Shown here one piece after another: positions 11,524 through 62,088 of a DNA stretch of 64,000 bases. The notes beneath the pieces are model-generated. The model was not told the origin of the DNA, ran no database searches, and saw only the letters and a program-made list of their open reading frames with translations. The first letter of the stretch is position 1. Each line of letters begins with the position of its first letter. A program made the translations under genes and the position numbers. The stretch is from Pseudarthrobacter sp. IC2-21 (GTDB lineage Bacteria > Actinomycetota > Actinomycetes > Actinomycetales > Micrococcaceae): positions 2,356,001 to 2,420,000 of the forward strand of contig NZ_CP139145.1 in NCBI RefSeq assembly GCF_034048115.1, written 5' to 3'.

Positions 11524-13215
11524 TCAGGCGTGCAGGCGCGGCGCGTCGAAGAAATCCAGCTCGAATCGGCAGGAGTGCCTGAACGCCTGAAGCATTGCGG
11601 CCTGTTCGTCCGCGGACGCCTTGCTGCCGGCCTCGCCGGCCATCGCGATCGCTTCGCGGGTTGCCTGAGCGAAGTCCTCGTCGGCATAGGTCCGCAACCA
11701 TTCGGCATAGGGATGGGCTTCGGGTGCGCCCGCTGCCAGGAACTGCGCATGCAGGGTCTGGCCCACTTCCGCGTAGAGCCAGAAGCACGGCAGGACTGCC
11801 GCCACCAGCACGGCGTAGCTGCCGGCGGCGGAGGCCGCAAGCAGGTGATCCACGTACGACTTGGTGACCGGGCCCAGGGTGCGCTCCACCGTGCGGGTGC
11901 TGAGCCAGGTGCGATGCAGCTCGGATTCGACCTCGAGGCACTGTTGGGCGGACCTGGCCCAGAACAGCTGGGCGGCCTCCGTAGGCGCCAGCGCGCTGGC
12001 CCGGGCCAGGGCACGGGAATAGCCGTTGAGATAGATGGCATCCTGGGCGAGGTAGTAGGCGAACTGGTCCTCTGCGAGAGTGCCGGCCGCCAGCCCGCGG
12101 ATGAATTCGAGCCGGTAGATGGCGTCCAGGTCGGGGGCCGCCGCCCGGCGAAGGGTCGCAGCGAAATCTTTGCCGGTGAGTTCCGCGGCTGCGGATTGGG
12201 CTGCGGGATCCCCTGCTGCGGATTCAGCCGGAACCGGCGCACCGCCAACAGGTTTCCCGCCGGCCTCAGGCTGGTGGAAATGGTGGAAATGGTTAATTGG
12301 GCCGCTCCCGCTTCCCACCTCCAGCAGCCCGGACGCCTGAAGTGCACCCGCGAGCCAGGGCTTTACCTCCCGCAGTGACGCCTCCCAGTCCCCCAGCCTG
12401 GCCTGCGCCGTGGCCATGGCCGAGGACAGCGAGCAGCCGGTGCCATGGCTGTTGCGGGTGGGAATCCGGTCTCCGGCCACTTCCACCACCGGGCGTGACA
12501 GCAGCCCCCCGGCGTTGACGAGGGCATCCGGGCACGCACCGCCGTCGAGATGGCCCCCCTTGACCAGGATGGTGGCGCCGGTGGCAGCGGCCAGGCGCTT
12601 GCCCTGTTCCAGCGCGGTGGCCCAGCTGTGGGCGCGCGGCGCGGCCACAAGGATCGCCAGTTCGGCGAGGTTGGGCGTGATCAGGTCCGCCAGCGGCAGC
12701 AGGGTCCGCAGGGCAGCCTCCGCGGATTCTTCCAGCAGCCGGTCCCCGCTGGTGGCCACCATGACCGGATCCAGAACAACGACGGCGGGACGCACCTTTT
12801 CGAGCCAGCTGCGGACGGTGTCAATCACCTCCGCGTTGCCCAGCATGCCGATCTTGACGGCGTCGATGGTGATGTCATCACTGATCGCGTCAAGCTGCTG
12901 GCGCAGGAATCCGGCCGGCGGCACGTGGACATCCCGGACTCCCCGGGTGTTCTGCGCGGTCAGGGCGGTGATGGCTGCCATGCCGTAACCGCCCAGGGCG
13001 GCGATGCTCTTGAGGTCGGCCTGGATGCCTGCCCCGCCGGACGGATCCGATCCTGCGATGGACAGCACCCGCGGAGTATGTCGCACCCCCGCCGCCGCCG
13101 AGGATTCCGGTGCAGGGCGCCGGGCAGAACCCTGCGCAGGAGATTGCGTTTCCTGGCTGCTGGAAGATTCTGAGGACGCGGGAGGAAGGACATAGGTCGA
13201 AGCCAAAGGAGACAT
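11524..13215 (-). CDS. ThiD-TenA fusion: HMP(-P) kinase and aminopyrimidine aminohydrolase
   Basis: 563 aa. After ~48 low-complexity residues comes a ThiD domain (about 49-300; VLSIAGSDPSGGAGIQADLK, then NSHGTGCSLSSA as the anion hole). It phosphorylates hydroxymethylpyrimidine for thiamin synthesis. A linker rich in His, Gly and Ala (about 300-345) leads to a TenA/thiaminase II domain (about 346-563). That domain has YLAQDAIYLNGYSRAL and the active-site cysteine in LPCFWLYAEVG; it salvages pyrimidine from degraded thiamin. A TPP riboswitch lies directly upstream. The ATG at 13215 sits inside the riboswitch 3' end with almost no spacing from GAAGGG; the TTG at 13206 (codon 4) is 8 bases from that GAAGGG and may be the true start. 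Confidence 0.93.
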   Translation of the reverse strand: MSPLASTYVLPPASSESSSSQETQSPAQGSARRPAPESSAAAGVRHTPRVLSIAGSDPSGGAGIQADLKSIAALGGYGMAAITALTAQNTRGVRDVHVPPAGFLRQQLDAISDDITIDAVKIGMLGNAEVIDTVRSWLEKVRPAVVVLDPVMVATSGDRLLEESAEAALRTLLPLADLITPNLAELAILVAAPRAHSWATALEQGKRLAAATGATILVKGGHLDGGACPDALVNAGGLLSRPVVEVAGDRIPTRNSHGTGCSLSSAMATAQARLGDWEASLREVKPWLAGALQASGLLEVGSGSGPINHFHHFHQPEAGGKPVGGAPVPAESAAGDPAAQSAAAELTGKDFAATLRRAAAPDLDAIYRLEFIRGLAAGTLAEDQFAYYLAQDAIYLNGYSRALARASALAPTEAAQLFWARSAQQCLEVESELHRTWLSTRTVERTLGPVTKSYVDHLLAASAAGSYAVLVAAVLPCFWLYAEVGQTLHAQFLAAGAPEAHPYAEWLRTYADEDFAQATREAIAMAGEAGSKASADEQAAMLQAFRHSCRFELDFFDAPRLHA

Positions 13216-13297
13216 CCCTTCGCCGGTACTAACCGGACAGGTTCAACGGGTGTGGATCTCAGCCGGCCCTTTGCGCGGCACCCCGTGTCAGTAACCC
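13212..13297 (-). promoter_or_regulatory. TPP riboswitch (THI element)
   Basis: On the minus strand the conserved blocks occur in order: ACGGGGTGCC, GGCTGAGATC, ACACCCGTTGAACCTG, GGTTAGTACCGGCGAAGGGA. They match the TPP aptamer core, including the CUGAGA pyrimidine-binding loop. A short outer helix can form between GACA (13289-13286) and TGTC (13214-13211), which includes part of the annotated ATG. The position, immediately upstream of thiD-tenA, fits repression by thiamin pyrophosphate at the translation step. Confidence 0.95.
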
Positions 13298-40175: not shown

Positions 40176-40661
40176 ATGAGCCTGAGCCAGCACCACTACT
40201 CGTTGGCGGTCCAGTGGACCGGAAACCTGGGCGAGGGGACCTCGTCCTACCGCGGCTACTCACGCGACCACGACATCGTGATCCCCGGACTGCCGGTCCT
40301 CAAGGGGTCGGCCGATCCGACGTTCCATGGGGACCGCGACAGGTACAACCCCGAGCAGCTGTTGCTGGCGGCGCTGGCGCAGTGCCACATGCTGTCCTTC
40401 CTGCATGTGGCGGTCCGGCACGGGGTGGTTGTCACCGGCTACCGGGACGAGGCCACGGGACGTCTTCGGCTGAACCAGGACGGCAGCGGCCAGTTCGAGT
40501 CCGTCACGCTGAACCCGCAGGTCACCGTGGCCGACGAGGCGCACGTGGCTCTGGCGGAGCAAATGCACCGGGAAGCCAACCAGGTCTGCTTTATCGCCCG
40601 GAGCGTCAACTTCCCGGTGCTGCACTCCCCGGTGACCGTAGCGTCCCGCCCGCCCAACTAG
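40176..40661 (+). CDS. OsmC family protein
   Basis: 161 aa. OsmC/Ohr-fold proteins reduce organic peroxides with a pair of cysteines. Here one Cys is in LLLAALAQCHMLSFLHVA (about residue 70) and the second in EANQVCFIARSVNFPVLH (about residue 134), so both redox cysteines are kept. The start is 9 bp after pepN, so the two probably share a transcript. The TAG stop is formed by TA at 40659-40660 plus the first base of the IS630 element; without the element the codon would still read TAG. Confidence 0.92.
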   Translation: MSLSQHHYSLAVQWTGNLGEGTSSYRGYSRDHDIVIPGLPVLKGSADPTFHGDRDRYNPEQLLLAALAQCHMLSFLHVAVRHGVVVTGYRDEATGRLRLNQDGSGQFESVTLNPQVTVADEAHVALAEQMHREANQVCFIARSVNFPVLHSPVTVASRPPN

Positions 40662-41807
40662 TGGTGTGTCTCCAAAATAGTTGATGCTTTGAGCGTTAAG
40701 CTTGTGTCATGGCGAACATTGCTCCTGCTTTGGTGGTTTCTGATTCCCAGCGTGCTTTGTTGGAGGTGCTCGCGAAGTCGCAGACGGCGTCCCATCGCGA
40801 GGTTCAGCGGGCGCAGGTGTTGTTGATGGCCGCGGAGGGGTTGGCCAATGATTCGATCGCGAAGGTTGCCGGGCTGAGTCCGGGGACGGTCAGGTCGTGG
40901 CGGGCCCGGTTCGAGGCAGAAGGCTTGGCCCACTTGGGCGAGGTGCGTGCCGGGCGTGGCCGCAAGCCGGTCATTCCACAGTCCAAGATCGATGAAATCG
41001 TTGATCTGACGCGCAATTCCAAGCCCGAAGGACACACGCACTGGTCGGTGCGGACGATGGCCGCGAAGGTGGGTGTGTCCCCGGCGCAGGTTCAGCGGAT
41101 CTGGGCGGCCCGGGGCTTGAAACCACACCTCGTGGATACTTTCAAGCTCTCCAACGATCCGAAGTTTGAGGAAAAACTCATCGATGTCGTTGGTCTGTAT
41201 CTGAACCCGCCGGAGAAGGCGATCGTGCTGTGCATGGACGAGAAATCCTCGATCCAGGCCCTGGACCGCACCCAGCCGTCCCTTCCGATGACGAAGGGCC
41301 GGGCCGAAACAATGACCCATGACTACAAACGCAACGGCACCACCACCTTGTTCGCCGCCCTGGACGTGGCCACCGGAAAAGTCATCGGCTCGTGCCTGCC
41401 CAAGCACCGGCACGAGGAATTCCTGGTGTTCCTCAAAACCATCAACAAGGAAGTCCCGCGCGGTTTGGACGTCCATCTGATCCTGGACAACTACGCCACC
41501 CACAAACACCCGGACGTGAAGGCCTGGCTGGTCAGAAATCCGAGGTTCCAGCTACATTTCACCCCCACCTCATCCTCGTGGCTGAACCTGGTCGAGCGCT
41601 GGTTCAGGGAACTGACCGACAAGGCATTACGCCGCGGTGCGTTCCATTCGGTACCGGATCTGATCACCAAAATCGAGGAGTACCTCGCCGCCCACAACAC
41701 CGAACCCAAGCCCCTGGTATGGACCACGACCGCAGACTCAATCCTTAAGAAAGTAGCCCGCGGCCGCGTCGCCCTCGAGACCATCAAACAAAACTGAGAC
41801 AGACCAC
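40661..41807 (+). mobile_element. IS630-family insertion sequence, complete
   Basis: 1147 bp with TA duplicated on both sides (40659-40660 and 41808-41809). Terminal inverted repeats: left GTGGTGTGTCTC, right (reversed) GTGGTCTGTCTC, one mismatch in 12; a further matching TTGATG lies about 20 bp in at each end. Joining the flanks restores CTAG, the target preferred by IS630-type elements. It contains one intact transposase gene. The intact ends and open frame suggest a recent, possibly still active insertion. Confidence 0.95.
40709..41797 (+). CDS. IS630-family transposase
   Basis: 362 aa. The N-terminal helix-turn-helix/homeodomain-like region (about 25-75; SIAKVAGLSPGTVRSWRARF) is followed by a second winged-helix part (WSVRTMAAKVGVSPAQVQRIW). 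The DDE/D catalytic domain has VLCMDEKSSIQALDR (first Asp), VHLILDNYATHKHPDV (second Asp) and FTPTSSSWLNLVERWF (Glu). All three acidic residues are present and the frame is uninterrupted. It fills most of the element, ending 10 bp before the right end. Confidence 0.96.
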   Translation: MANIAPALVVSDSQRALLEVLAKSQTASHREVQRAQVLLMAAEGLANDSIAKVAGLSPGTVRSWRARFEAEGLAHLGEVRAGRGRKPVIPQSKIDEIVDLTRNSKPEGHTHWSVRTMAAKVGVSPAQVQRIWAARGLKPHLVDTFKLSNDPKFEEKLIDVVGLYLNPPEKAIVLCMDEKSSIQALDRTQPSLPMTKGRAETMTHDYKRNGTTTLFAALDVATGKVIGSCLPKHRHEEFLVFLKTINKEVPRGLDVHLILDNYATHKHPDVKAWLVRNPRFQLHFTPTSSSWLNLVERWFRELTDKALRRGAFHSVPDLITKIEEYLAAHNTEPKPLVWTTTADSILKKVARGRVALETIKQN

Positions 41808-41810
41808 TAG

Positions 41811-41858
41811 GTAGCAGTAAGTGTCGTTTTGAGGGCTCAAAACGACACTTACTGCTAC
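41811..41858. repeat. 48-bp palindromic repeat, copy 1
   Basis: Perfect 22-bp arms around loop GGGC. Block order on the left arm: GTAGC, variable AGTAAG, TGTCGTTTTGA; the right arm is TCAAAACGACA, CTTACT, GCTAC, followed by TTAC. It has the same length and constant blocks as the copy at 61275, with a different but still self-complementary variable block. It lies one base beyond the right TA duplication of the IS630 element and, without the element, would directly follow the osmC stop. It faces the convergent epimerase pseudogene. Confidence 0.92.
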
Positions 41859-41877
41859 TTACATGGAGGCTGCCGGG

Positions 41878-59100: not shown

Positions 59101-59492
59101 GCGGATGGGTTGACCGATACGCCGGGTTCTGTGCTCCCGTGCCGTTACCAGCGCGGGAGTAGCGGCCATCCATCTACGGACGCCGTTGCCGACGCCCTCC
59201 AGCGGCCTACCCGGACACTCGGGCGGGCAGCCCTCAATCGTGTCCTGTCTGGCCTTGCTCCGGGTGGGGTTTACCTAGCCTTCCCGGTCACCCGGGAAGC
59301 TGGTGGTCTCTTACACCACCGTTTCACCCTTACCTGCTGCCTTCCGTTGCCGGAAGACGCAGGCGGTCTGTTCTCTGTGGCACTGGCCTGCGGGTTACCC
59401 CGAGTGGGCGTTACCCACCACCCTGCCCTGCGGAGCCCGGACGTTCCTCGAGCCACTTGCGTGACGCGCGGCCGCCTGGTCAACCCATCCGC
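59101..59492 (-). ncRNA. rnpB: RNase P RNA, bacterial type A
   Basis: On the minus strand the ends pair perfectly as P1 (15 bases, GCGGATGGGTTGACC and its complement at 59101). Conserved blocks follow: GAGGAACGTCCGGGCTCC, then GGGTAACGCCC-type P-helix, CCACAGAGAACAGACCGCC and GGTAAGGGTGAAACGG. These are the invariant catalytic-core elements of the ribozyme that matures tRNA 5' ends. Size about 392 nt, normal for high-GC Gram-positives. Confidence 0.96.
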
Positions 59493-60509: not shown

Positions 60510-61316
60510 GTGCTGATTCTGCTTCCCCCCTCCGAAGGCAAGACCCCCGCAGTCCGCGGATCCGCCGTCGACTGGCCCGACCTGAGCTTTCCGGCGCTCA
60601 ACCCGTACCGGGCGAAAGTCCTCGAAGCACTGGGGACGGTCAGCGCGCACCAGGACGCCCTCGCTTTGCTGGGCGTCGGGGCCTCGCTCAGGGACGACGT
60701 CGAACGCAACACCCGGCTCCATGCCGAACCGGCGGCGCCTGCCCACCAAATCTATTCGGGCGTTCTGTACGACGCCCTCGGTTACAAGACGCTGACACCG
60801 ACACAGCGCCGCAAGGCGGATGAATCCGTGCTGGTGGTTTCCGCGTTGTGGGGCGCCATCCGCTTCGCTGACCGGGTGCCCGCGTACCGGCTGTCGATGG
60901 GAACCGCACTGCCCGACGTCGGCCGCCTCGCCTCTTTCTGGAAGCCGCAGCTTTCGGAGGCCCTCGCGGATGCGGCCGCCGGGCACCTGCTGGTGGACTG
61001 CCGCTCCAGCACTTACGCCGCGGCGTGGGCGCCCCCGCCGGCGCAAACCGTAGCCGTGAACGTTTTCACCGAGGTGAACGGTGTACGCAAGGTGGTGAGC
61101 CACTTCGCGAAGCATACGCGCGGGGAATTGGCACGGCATTTGCTGTCCCGCCGCGGCAAGGCCCCGCAGACACCAGCTCAGCTGCTCAAGGCAGCCCGCG
61201 AGAAATGGGAAGCGGAGCTGGTGGACGGTGCAGCCCGCACGCCGCATGCGTTGAACATCATCCTCCCCAACTGGGTAGCGCTATCTGTCGTTCTGAGCGA
61301 TCAAAACGACAGATAG
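60510..61316 (+). CDS. yaaA: Peroxide stress protein YaaA
   Basis: 268 aa from GTG 60510 (MLILLPPSEGKTPAVRG is the family start). YaaA limits free iron and DNA damage under peroxide. Other conserved parts: YSGVLYDALGY, VVSALWGAIRFADRVPAYRLSMG and KVVSHFAKHTRGELARHLL. The last 13 residues (VALSVVLSDQNDR) and the TAG stop are encoded by the 48-bp palindrome at 61275. The native C-terminus was probably near ALNIILPNW, so the repeat seems to have extended or replaced it. Confidence 0.93.
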   Translation: MLILLPPSEGKTPAVRGSAVDWPDLSFPALNPYRAKVLEALGTVSAHQDALALLGVGASLRDDVERNTRLHAEPAAPAHQIYSGVLYDALGYKTLTPTQRRKADESVLVVSALWGAIRFADRVPAYRLSMGTALPDVGRLASFWKPQLSEALADAAAGHLLVDCRSSTYAAAWAPPPAQTVAVNVFTEVNGVRKVVSHFAKHTRGELARHLLSRRGKAPQTPAQLLKAAREKWEAELVDGAARTPHALNIILPNWVALSVVLSDQNDR

Positions 61317-61322
61317 CGCTAC
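61275..61322. repeat. 48-bp palindromic repeat, copy 2
   Basis: 22-bp arms with a single C/A mismatch, loop GCGA. Blocks on the left: GTAGC, variable GCTATC, TGTCGTTCTGA; right: TCAAAACGACA, GATAGC, GCTAC, then TTAC. Constant blocks match the copy at 41811 and the variable block covaries on both arms. It begins inside yaaA in frame, provides its stop, and lies before the convergent gene ending at 61333. Confidence 0.92.
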
Positions 61323-61332
61323 TTACTTGGGA

Positions 61333-62088
61333 CTAGCTGGCTGGGGCGGCCGTGTTCCACTCCGCCGAGCGCACCAGGATGGCGCCGGAGTCCGGGCAGA
61401 AAACAATGTCGTCCTCCGCGGCGGCTTTGATTTCGGCGAGGTCGCCGGGGCTCAGCTTCATTCCGGAGGCCTCGGAAGTGCCGTGGAAGAGCCGGGCAGC
61501 GCCCACACCGCGCTTGGCGAGCGTCTTTTCGTAGATTGCCAGCATCCCGGCATCGAGTCCGGCGGCGAATTCATCTCGCTGGCCCCGCACGACTTTCTCT
61601 TCGGCATCCACTTCAGCCAGGGCTTCATCAAGTTCGGCCCGGATGCCGCTAAAGGAGCCCTTGATGTCATCAACGATCTGCTGCTGGGCGGCCTGCCGTG
61701 CCCGGAGGGAGTCGAGGCGTTCGAGCACTTCGAGTTCCACGTCCTCGAGGTCCGAGCGGCGCTTGTTGAGCGAGGCGATGTCCTTCTGCAGTGCAACGAG
61801 GTCCTTCGACAGACCTGTGCCGCTGTTGAGCCGGGCCTCGTCCCGTTCTATCCGGTTGGCGACCTGCTCGACGTCGGCCTCCGCGCGCTTCAGCTCGGCT
61901 TCGGCGTCGTGGACAGCCACCTTGGCCCCGCCAAGTTCACCGTTGGCGACAGAGAGAGCAGCCTCGAGATCGGTGATCCGCGGATCAGAGTTGAGGGTGC
62001 GGCGGCGGTTGGACAGGGACTTGAGCTTTGCGTCCAGCCCCTGCAGTTCGAGCAACTTCAACTGTTCTGCCGGTGCTGCCTTAGCCAA
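61333..62088 (-). CDS. Coiled-coil protein with degenerate C4 zinc ribbon
   Basis: 251 aa. A long coiled coil spans about residues 8-190 (for example DAEAELKRAEADVEQVANRIE). The C-terminal part aligns with the zinc-ribbon family that usually carries two CxxC pairs. Here only one Cys remains (VFCPDSGAILVR, where CxxCGRILVR is normal) and the first pair reads FHGTSEASG. Zinc binding is probably lost. It sits next to the NIF3-like gene, the usual neighbour in actinobacteria, 62 bp after it. Convergent with yaaA. Confidence 0.88.
   Translation of the reverse strand: MAKAAPAEQLKLLELQGLDAKLKSLSNRRRTLNSDPRITDLEAALSVANGELGGAKVAVHDAEAELKRAEADVEQVANRIERDEARLNSGTGLSKDLVALQKDIASLNKRRSDLEDVELEVLERLDSLRARQAAQQQIVDDIKGSFSGIRAELDEALAEVDAEEKVVRGQRDEFAAGLDAGMLAIYEKTLAKRGVGAARLFHGTSEASGMKLSPGDLAEIKAAAEDDIVFCPDSGAILVRSAEWNTAAPAS

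Follow-up and report, generated by a model that had tools for sequence, protein, structure and literature searches.

The palindromes and their neighboring genes

The analyzed window, a 64,000-nucleotide stretch of the Pseudarthrobacter sp. IC2-21 chromosome, contained two copies of a long palindrome. The full copy, 66 bp in length and designated type A, was located at 61266..61331, with yaaA on one side and a gene for a CT398-like coiled-coil protein with a C4 zinc ribbon on the other. The two genes are convergent: yaaA, which encodes the peroxide stress protein YaaA, occupies 60510..61316 on the plus strand, and the zinc-ribbon gene occupies 61333..62088 on the minus strand. It was noted that the yaaA reading frame now terminates within the palindrome and that YaaA takes a 254-aa form in most relatives. 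The second palindrome, also of 66 bp, was found to be interrupted by an IS630-family insertion sequence at 40661..41807 (plus strand), with its severed left end (CCCAACTA) at 40653..40660 and its larger part to the right of the insertion at 41810..41867. The transposase ORF of this element (40709-41797) matched NCBIfam transpos_IS630 at E 2.5e-81. The TA at 40659-40660 was duplicated at 41808-41809, and the junction falls at the TA of the palindrome's left end (CCCAAC-TA...TA-GGTAGC).

Alignment of all copies defined an element of 66 bp, comprising two 31-base arms and a 4-base loop, with the consensus CCCAACTAGGTAGC-N6-TGTCGTTNTGA-N4-TCANAACGACA-N6'-GCTACCTAGTTGGG. Its ends read CCCAAC. The initial annotation had reported two 48-bp palindromes in this window; both were present at the positions given, but 61275-61322 proved to be only the middle of the full element, and the TTAC placed just after the hairpin is really the right arm continuing. 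The palindrome at 41811 looks shorter because the IS630-family element splits its left end at the TA. The six-base blocks AGTAAG and GCTATC, described as wholly different, differ at four of six positions. The palindromes themselves are real; the copy at 61275 carries a C/A mismatch inside the core. Both copies do lie between convergent genes as had been stated, and for the one at 41811 the left neighbor is now the IS transposase, with an OsmC gene beyond it in the same direction.

The full window copy was predicted to fold at -45.5 kcal/mol on both strands. The core pattern gave no match in 100 shuffles of the window, and at the palindromes no Rfam match was as high as the gathering score of its family. 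Elsewhere in the window, a class A RNase P RNA (59102-59487) and a TPP riboswitch (13198-13295) were both ordinary.

A dispersed family with covarying arms

Searching the 4.27-Mb chromosome with the core pattern recovered 42 copies of the palindrome, compared with 0 in the control. The proposal of a dispersed family was therefore borne out, with copies found genome-wide and not just inside IS elements. A covariance model added weaker matches in the genome, including palindromes with other arms (CATCGATTGCTCCG), designated type B.

We then assessed the pairing of the two arms across the 42 copies. The N6 blocks were exactly complementary in 23 copies, and 89.3% of all pair cells were paired. 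Changes on both sides of a pair were observed in 68 cells, against 38.0±4.4 after shuffling and no more than 14 in controls with slid partners. The same was found among 28 orthologous copies at the yaaA site, where 115 cells were changed on both sides, compared with 48.3±6.5 in shuffles and at most 23 in slid controls. Pairing has thus been kept through change, which agrees with the compensatory change first described from the two window copies. Conservation of pairing was uneven along the arm: positions 10-14 and 21-27 were unpaired in 0-3 of the 42 copies and the N6 block in 0-8, compared with 25/42 for position 6 and 15/42 for position 28. The N6 blocks were also found to be recurring arm types, with two different arms in some copies, so part of the covariation pattern reflects subfamily structure.

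An autonomous element ending in single arms was considered and rejected for this genome, in which all arm matches with 0 or 1 mismatch were inside palindromes. Separately, type A palindromes also occur as a second pair with a spacing of 836 bp (L027; G000 1400464-1401365, where G000 denotes this genome), and this pair encloses a short Ser/Pro-rich open frame rather than the nuclease gene described below.

Position relative to genes

The palindromes were found to occupy a distinct niche at the 3' ends of genes. By our own gene calls, which were made with a codon-likelihood script and not a published gene finder, 23 of the 42 copies were between convergent genes, 16 between tandem genes, and 3 between divergent genes, with none intragenic; 39 of the 42 were at the 3' end of a gene. 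The background of 332 gene pairs, palindrome pairs included, comprised 62 convergent, 205 tandem, and 65 divergent pairs, giving a convergent excess among the palindromes (Fisher p = 1.3e-8, approximate because some gene pairs overlap). At 13 gene ends (12 sites), the stop codon is supplied by the CCCAAC-TAR end of the element itself.

A wider set showed a similar distribution. From 185 palindromes scanned, 41 without the family motif were excluded, and the remaining 144, which include the orthologous yaaA-site copies, comprised 86 convergent, 41 tandem, 5 divergent, 2 intragenic, and 1 unclassified copies, along with 9 that lay too close to the end of a locus. In 116/127 of the set, no more than 30 bp separated the palindrome from the nearest stop (median 4 bp). 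All seven type B copies that were checked lay within 15 bp of a called stop.

The initial annotation had suggested that the palindromes may act as bidirectional terminators, which our results did not support. No U-tract followed the hairpin (T made up 15.7% of the next 25 bases), 9 of the 16 tandem copies were within 50 bp of the start of the next gene by our own gene calls, and G-U was not preferred over A-C on the sense strand of the tandem copies (14 vs 19). An apparent lack of U-tract terminators at palindromes (0/225 vs 16/509 gene ends) failed once a less strict detector and independent sites were used, with 2/62 gene ends bearing a palindrome and 7/272 without one having such a terminator. 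As few gene ends of this genome have a U-tract terminator, whether or not a palindrome is present, that comparison is uninformative. A palindrome was also encountered between aceA and aceB on the conjugative plasmids pAD51 (L304) and pADNL1 (L305), and the chromosomal copy at G000 606964, which lies between similarly sized genes, may represent the same locus. Terminator or stabilizer roles of the palindromes may be secondary.

The association with the IS630-family element was examined across the genome. Three of its four copies were located in palindromes, in each case at the TA of an arm end (p about 1e-9 under random insertion), and the fourth occupied the site CAAC-TA-GATG, which suggests that the element may recognize the sequence CAACTAG rather than the hairpin. 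Among the yaaA palindromes of relatives, an IS630 end was found at the TA in L212, and an IS end in the right arm in L238.

Distribution and turnover across genomes

The core was present in 34/37 genomes of the genus, this genome included, at 1 to 120 copies where present, and in none of 22 genomes from other genera of the order. Across the class, the core alone was found in 3/394 genomes, all of the same genus. The covariance model extended this range, with matches in 39/197 genomes and 14/32 genera of the family and in 20/297 genomes of the order at E 1e-4. Two of the out-of-family matches were examined (L288 and L289) and possessed a similar core with other arms. The exact core was also recorded on one contig of a viral collection (L277).

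At the yaaA site, the palindrome was kept in 27/65 named loci, with remnants or nothing in the others; this count follows the rejection by eye of 3 of the 30 matches returned by the script. The closest named relative by YaaA (98%) was Pseudarthrobacter sp. H3Y2-7. Comparing orthologous with paralogous copies gave mixed results: orthologue likeness was below that of the median paralogue in 5/8 comparisons, middling in 1/8, and near the best in 2/8, with a ninth filled orthologue of 68 bases (G258) omitted. Palindrome copies have been gained and lost between species. No target duplication above the level of shuffled flanks was detected in 82 canonical-ended copies. The empty-site comparison gave no clean insertion signature among the cases listed (of 226), which were mainly deletions or replaced sequence; a TCAGG repeat was noted in one of the listed cases (L159). 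At four palindrome-less orthologous sites (L186, L187, L204, and L205), a different hairpin or repeat can occupy the same intergenic gap.

A predicted nuclease gene flanked by matching palindromes

In this genome, a gene of about 310 codons, the candidate partner nuclease gene (G000 1178563-1179495), is enclosed by type A palindromes at G000 1178434 and 1179487, a distance of 1,053 bp. A palindrome-baited search recovered 15 copies of this gene in 14 genomes, and palindromes were detected on both sides of 13/15; the exceptions were the G000-B copy and a frameshifted copy in G011, for which no downstream palindrome was detected. The gene was contained in 13 of the 16 regions of the bait search, and the regions without it (L326-L328) had been taken around single palindromes. 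The proteins formed two subtypes, with subtype A accompanying type A palindromes and subtype B accompanying type B palindromes. The mean arm score was 12.3 within A and 15.1 within B, compared with 5.8 between A and B.

By profile, the N-terminus of the protein is AbiEi-like and the C-terminus matches the MTES_1575/DUF559 nuclease profiles, with MTES_1575 below its curated cut-off in 4/4 proteins and DUF559 above its cut-off in 1/4. A profile search of solved structures identified 3hrl, an endonuclease-like protein, at E 3e-4. Across 55 sequences, the invariant columns were E208, R212, D241, E252, G255, D267, R270, and W279, among which E208, D241, E252, and D267 are the conserved acidic residues of the predicted nuclease core. 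No AbiEii nucleotidyltransferase was named among the annotated neighbors in L308 and L310-L312, and no relative was found in viral contigs searched with the nuclease protein alignment.

A conserved box, TGTGGATA(A), was located upstream of the start in 17/18 Micrococcaceae genes (L024, L306-L308, and L313-L325), at 46-48 bp in 16/18 and just past the upstream palindrome, against a background of 0.003 per 150 bp. It was absent upstream of the three Tsukamurella genes. The box is identical to a DnaA-box-like sequence and could be part of a promoter or a DnaA box. What had at first looked like a DnaA box in type B palindromes turned out to belong to the region upstream of the nuclease gene.

As an independent test, plasmid records were searched by protein alone, with no palindrome as bait, and all seven matches were examined in a palindrome scan that allowed loops of up to 34 bases. 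Palindromes of the same family were found at both ends of the gene in 5/7 loci, three from Arthrobacter (L306, L307, and L308) and two from Tsukamurella (L310 and L311); the upstream palindrome of L306 is degenerate and was found by eye and at score 10. In a further Tsukamurella locus (L312), inspection by eye showed the gene enclosed by a pair of inverted arms, each about 33 bases long. The Nonomuraea locus (L309), a partial protein match, had no palindrome. Half of the palindromes (10/20) fell within the gene-flanking 7.6% of 39.8 kb (p = 5.6e-7). The palindrome-gene-palindrome locus is a recurring one.

The palindrome sequences differed among the six palindrome-bearing plasmid loci, and across the gene family palindrome and protein varied together. 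Upstream and downstream palindromes of the same gene had a similarity of 15.2, compared with 6.4 for those of different genes. Palindrome similarity was correlated with protein similarity, in a comparison that still includes relatedness (Mantel r = 0.77; 0 of 2000 permutations). Within subtype A the correlation was also strong (r = 0.84; 6 of 2000), and within subtype B it was weak (r = 0.23; 190 of 2000).

Several of these palindromes were themselves dispersed. For the L311 palindrome, 8 records of Tsukamurella tyrosinosolvens gave 20 places, a count in which one palindrome may appear on both strands. The L310 palindrome was encountered at 11 places in 9 records, the L307 palindrome at 10 in 2 records, and the L308 palindrome at 3 in a single record, while the arm of L312 had 5 places in 3 records. 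Six of the seven records of the L311-palindrome set without the nuclease were examined (H16 was left out), and the six Tsukamurella copies comprised five between convergent annotated genes and one between tandem genes, with an annotated stop no more than 11 bp away in every case. Copies lay under annotated genes in 1/8 entries of the L311-palindrome set (H16) and in 3/9 entries of the L310-palindrome set.

Interpretation and alternative explanations

The pairing of palindrome and nuclease gene is well supported. On balance, we favor a reading in which a REP-like mobile repeat has given rise to the palindromes as its non-autonomous copies and has as its partner a standalone nuclease of the DUF559 type (PD-(D/E)XK-like), AbiEi-like in its N-terminal part; movement of the repeats by the nuclease is inferred. 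Counting against this reading are Pfam scores mostly under the curated cut-offs, the weak Mantel correlation within subtype B, the Nonomuraea relative with no palindrome, the two bait-found genes for which no downstream palindrome was detected, the lack of a clean insertion signature, and the entries that lie under annotated genes.

A different account, which we regard as unlikely, is that the palindromes are 3'-end elements under RNA selection, either bidirectional terminators or mRNA stabilizers, and that the nuclease gene is merely one more bearer. The location of 39/42 copies at 3' ends, close against stop codons, the very stable fold of -45.5 kcal/mol on both strands, and the retention of pairing through change would all be expected from such elements. 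The same copies, however, have no U-tract and no preference for G-U, and 9/16 of those in tandem are within 50 bp of the next start, as at aceA/aceB. The palindrome at yaaA is present in only 27/65 relatives, and the account leaves unexplained why, in several genera, a single gene family has matched palindromes on both sides. We consider it rather improbable that the AbiEi-nuclease is instead a regulator, a toxin-antitoxin-like protein, or a defense factor, with the palindromes serving as its operators or as self marks and owing their spread to general recombination rather than to the protein. The AbiEi-like N-terminus fits this role, as does the upstream palindrome, which adjoins a conserved box lying 46-48 bp ahead of the start in 16/18 genes, but operators would be expected at promoters, yet the dispersed copies are at gene ends, and the nuclease gene has a second palindrome at its own 3' end.

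The covariation itself could have arisen by mutational correction between arms (template switching) together with the descent of subfamilies, the hairpin itself being under no selection. Recurring N6 arm types and copies with two different arms are consistent with this process, but it should act on whole arms, and position 6 was unpaired in 25/42 copies and position 28 in 15/42, compared with 0-3 for positions 10-14 and 21-27. As a full explanation it is very improbable, and arm correction could be acting together with the favored reading. We give almost no credence to the palindromes being leftovers or MITEs of the IS630-family element: three of its four copies are indeed in palindromes, but the ends of the IS are unlike those of the palindromes, its fourth copy is in CAAC-TA-GATG, and the 82 canonical-ended palindromes are without target duplication. 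The IS630-family element is a visitor in the palindromes.

Under the favored reading, in which the nuclease partners the repeats, the protein would bind its cognate palindrome. It may also bind at its own promoter, because the conserved TGTGGATAA, roughly 47 bp ahead of the start, directly follows the end of the upstream palindrome. The protein would then nick or cut the palindrome, and repair would copy or replace palindromes elsewhere. Copies would persist where genes terminate and where the element can provide a stop codon, and the palindrome ends would then become landing sites for the IS630-family element.

These results point to a type of small mobile DNA that has escaped notice until now and that has an enzyme of its own. 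More broadly, we judge it about evenly balanced whether this constitutes a new class of mobile repeat in the Actinomycetes, in which a restriction-enzyme-like nuclease joined to an AbiEi part recognizes its own long hairpins and spreads them into gene ends with no HUH or DDE chemistry, each nuclease lineage having its own hairpin sequence. An own hairpin sequence per lineage means that several nuclease-hairpin families per genome are possible; two were found in this genome and three in one Tsukamurella strain. If a nuclease of this common, uncharacterized type does move repeats, the hairpins at many actinobacterial gene ends would be explained, standalone AbiEi-DUF559 proteins would gain a role, and a second, non-homologous route to the repeat-plus-partner design would be apparent. 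The question also bears on transcript 3' ends and on IS landing sites, and the idea is directly testable because there is one candidate gene per palindrome family.

Comparison with known systems

The domains of the partner protein match those of standalone AbiEi-DUF559 and REase_MTES_1575 proteins, and its relatives are named as DUF559, endonuclease-domain, or AbiEi-family proteins. In the open-licence portion of PubMed Central, we found nothing linking standalone AbiEi-DUF559 proteins to dispersed palindromes and no description of this palindrome family. TRIT terminators of mycobacteria are conserved hairpins at gene ends in actinobacteria, and the palindromes resemble them by description only, as hairpins at actinobacterial gene ends. 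For REP-like palindromes in genomes without a RAYT, we know of no mover.

It had been suggested at the outset that the palindromes may be REP-type elements with a GTAG foot resembling the one that RAYT transposases recognize. The family is indeed REP-like in its behavior, but the RAYT part of the proposal was not supported, as GTAG is internal to the stem and no match to Y1_Tnp (PF01797) was found in this genome, with a match in only 1/61 genomes of the genus; the profile gave matches in 5/14 controls. REPs are targeted by other IS elements (PMC1525189), and the REP-inserting elements (IS1397, ISKpn1, IS621, and others) likewise land in a dispersed palindrome. They differ in that the element here is of the IS630 family, a term absent from PMC1525189.

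In REP/RAYT systems, a copy of the repeat stands on each side of the partner gene, and the repeat varies in step with the protein (PMC2817692). The palindromes are likewise dispersed, extragenic, and present in many copies (42 in this genome, with none intragenic by our gene calls), and a partner gene again lies between two repeats, here from another protein family. The differences lie in the parts: there is no Y1 transposase, the repeat lacks a 5' GT(A/G)G head, and each repeat is a single 66-bp, near-perfect hairpin with a DUF559-type partner. The likeness to REP/RAYT systems is a matter of design alone, analogous rather than homologous.
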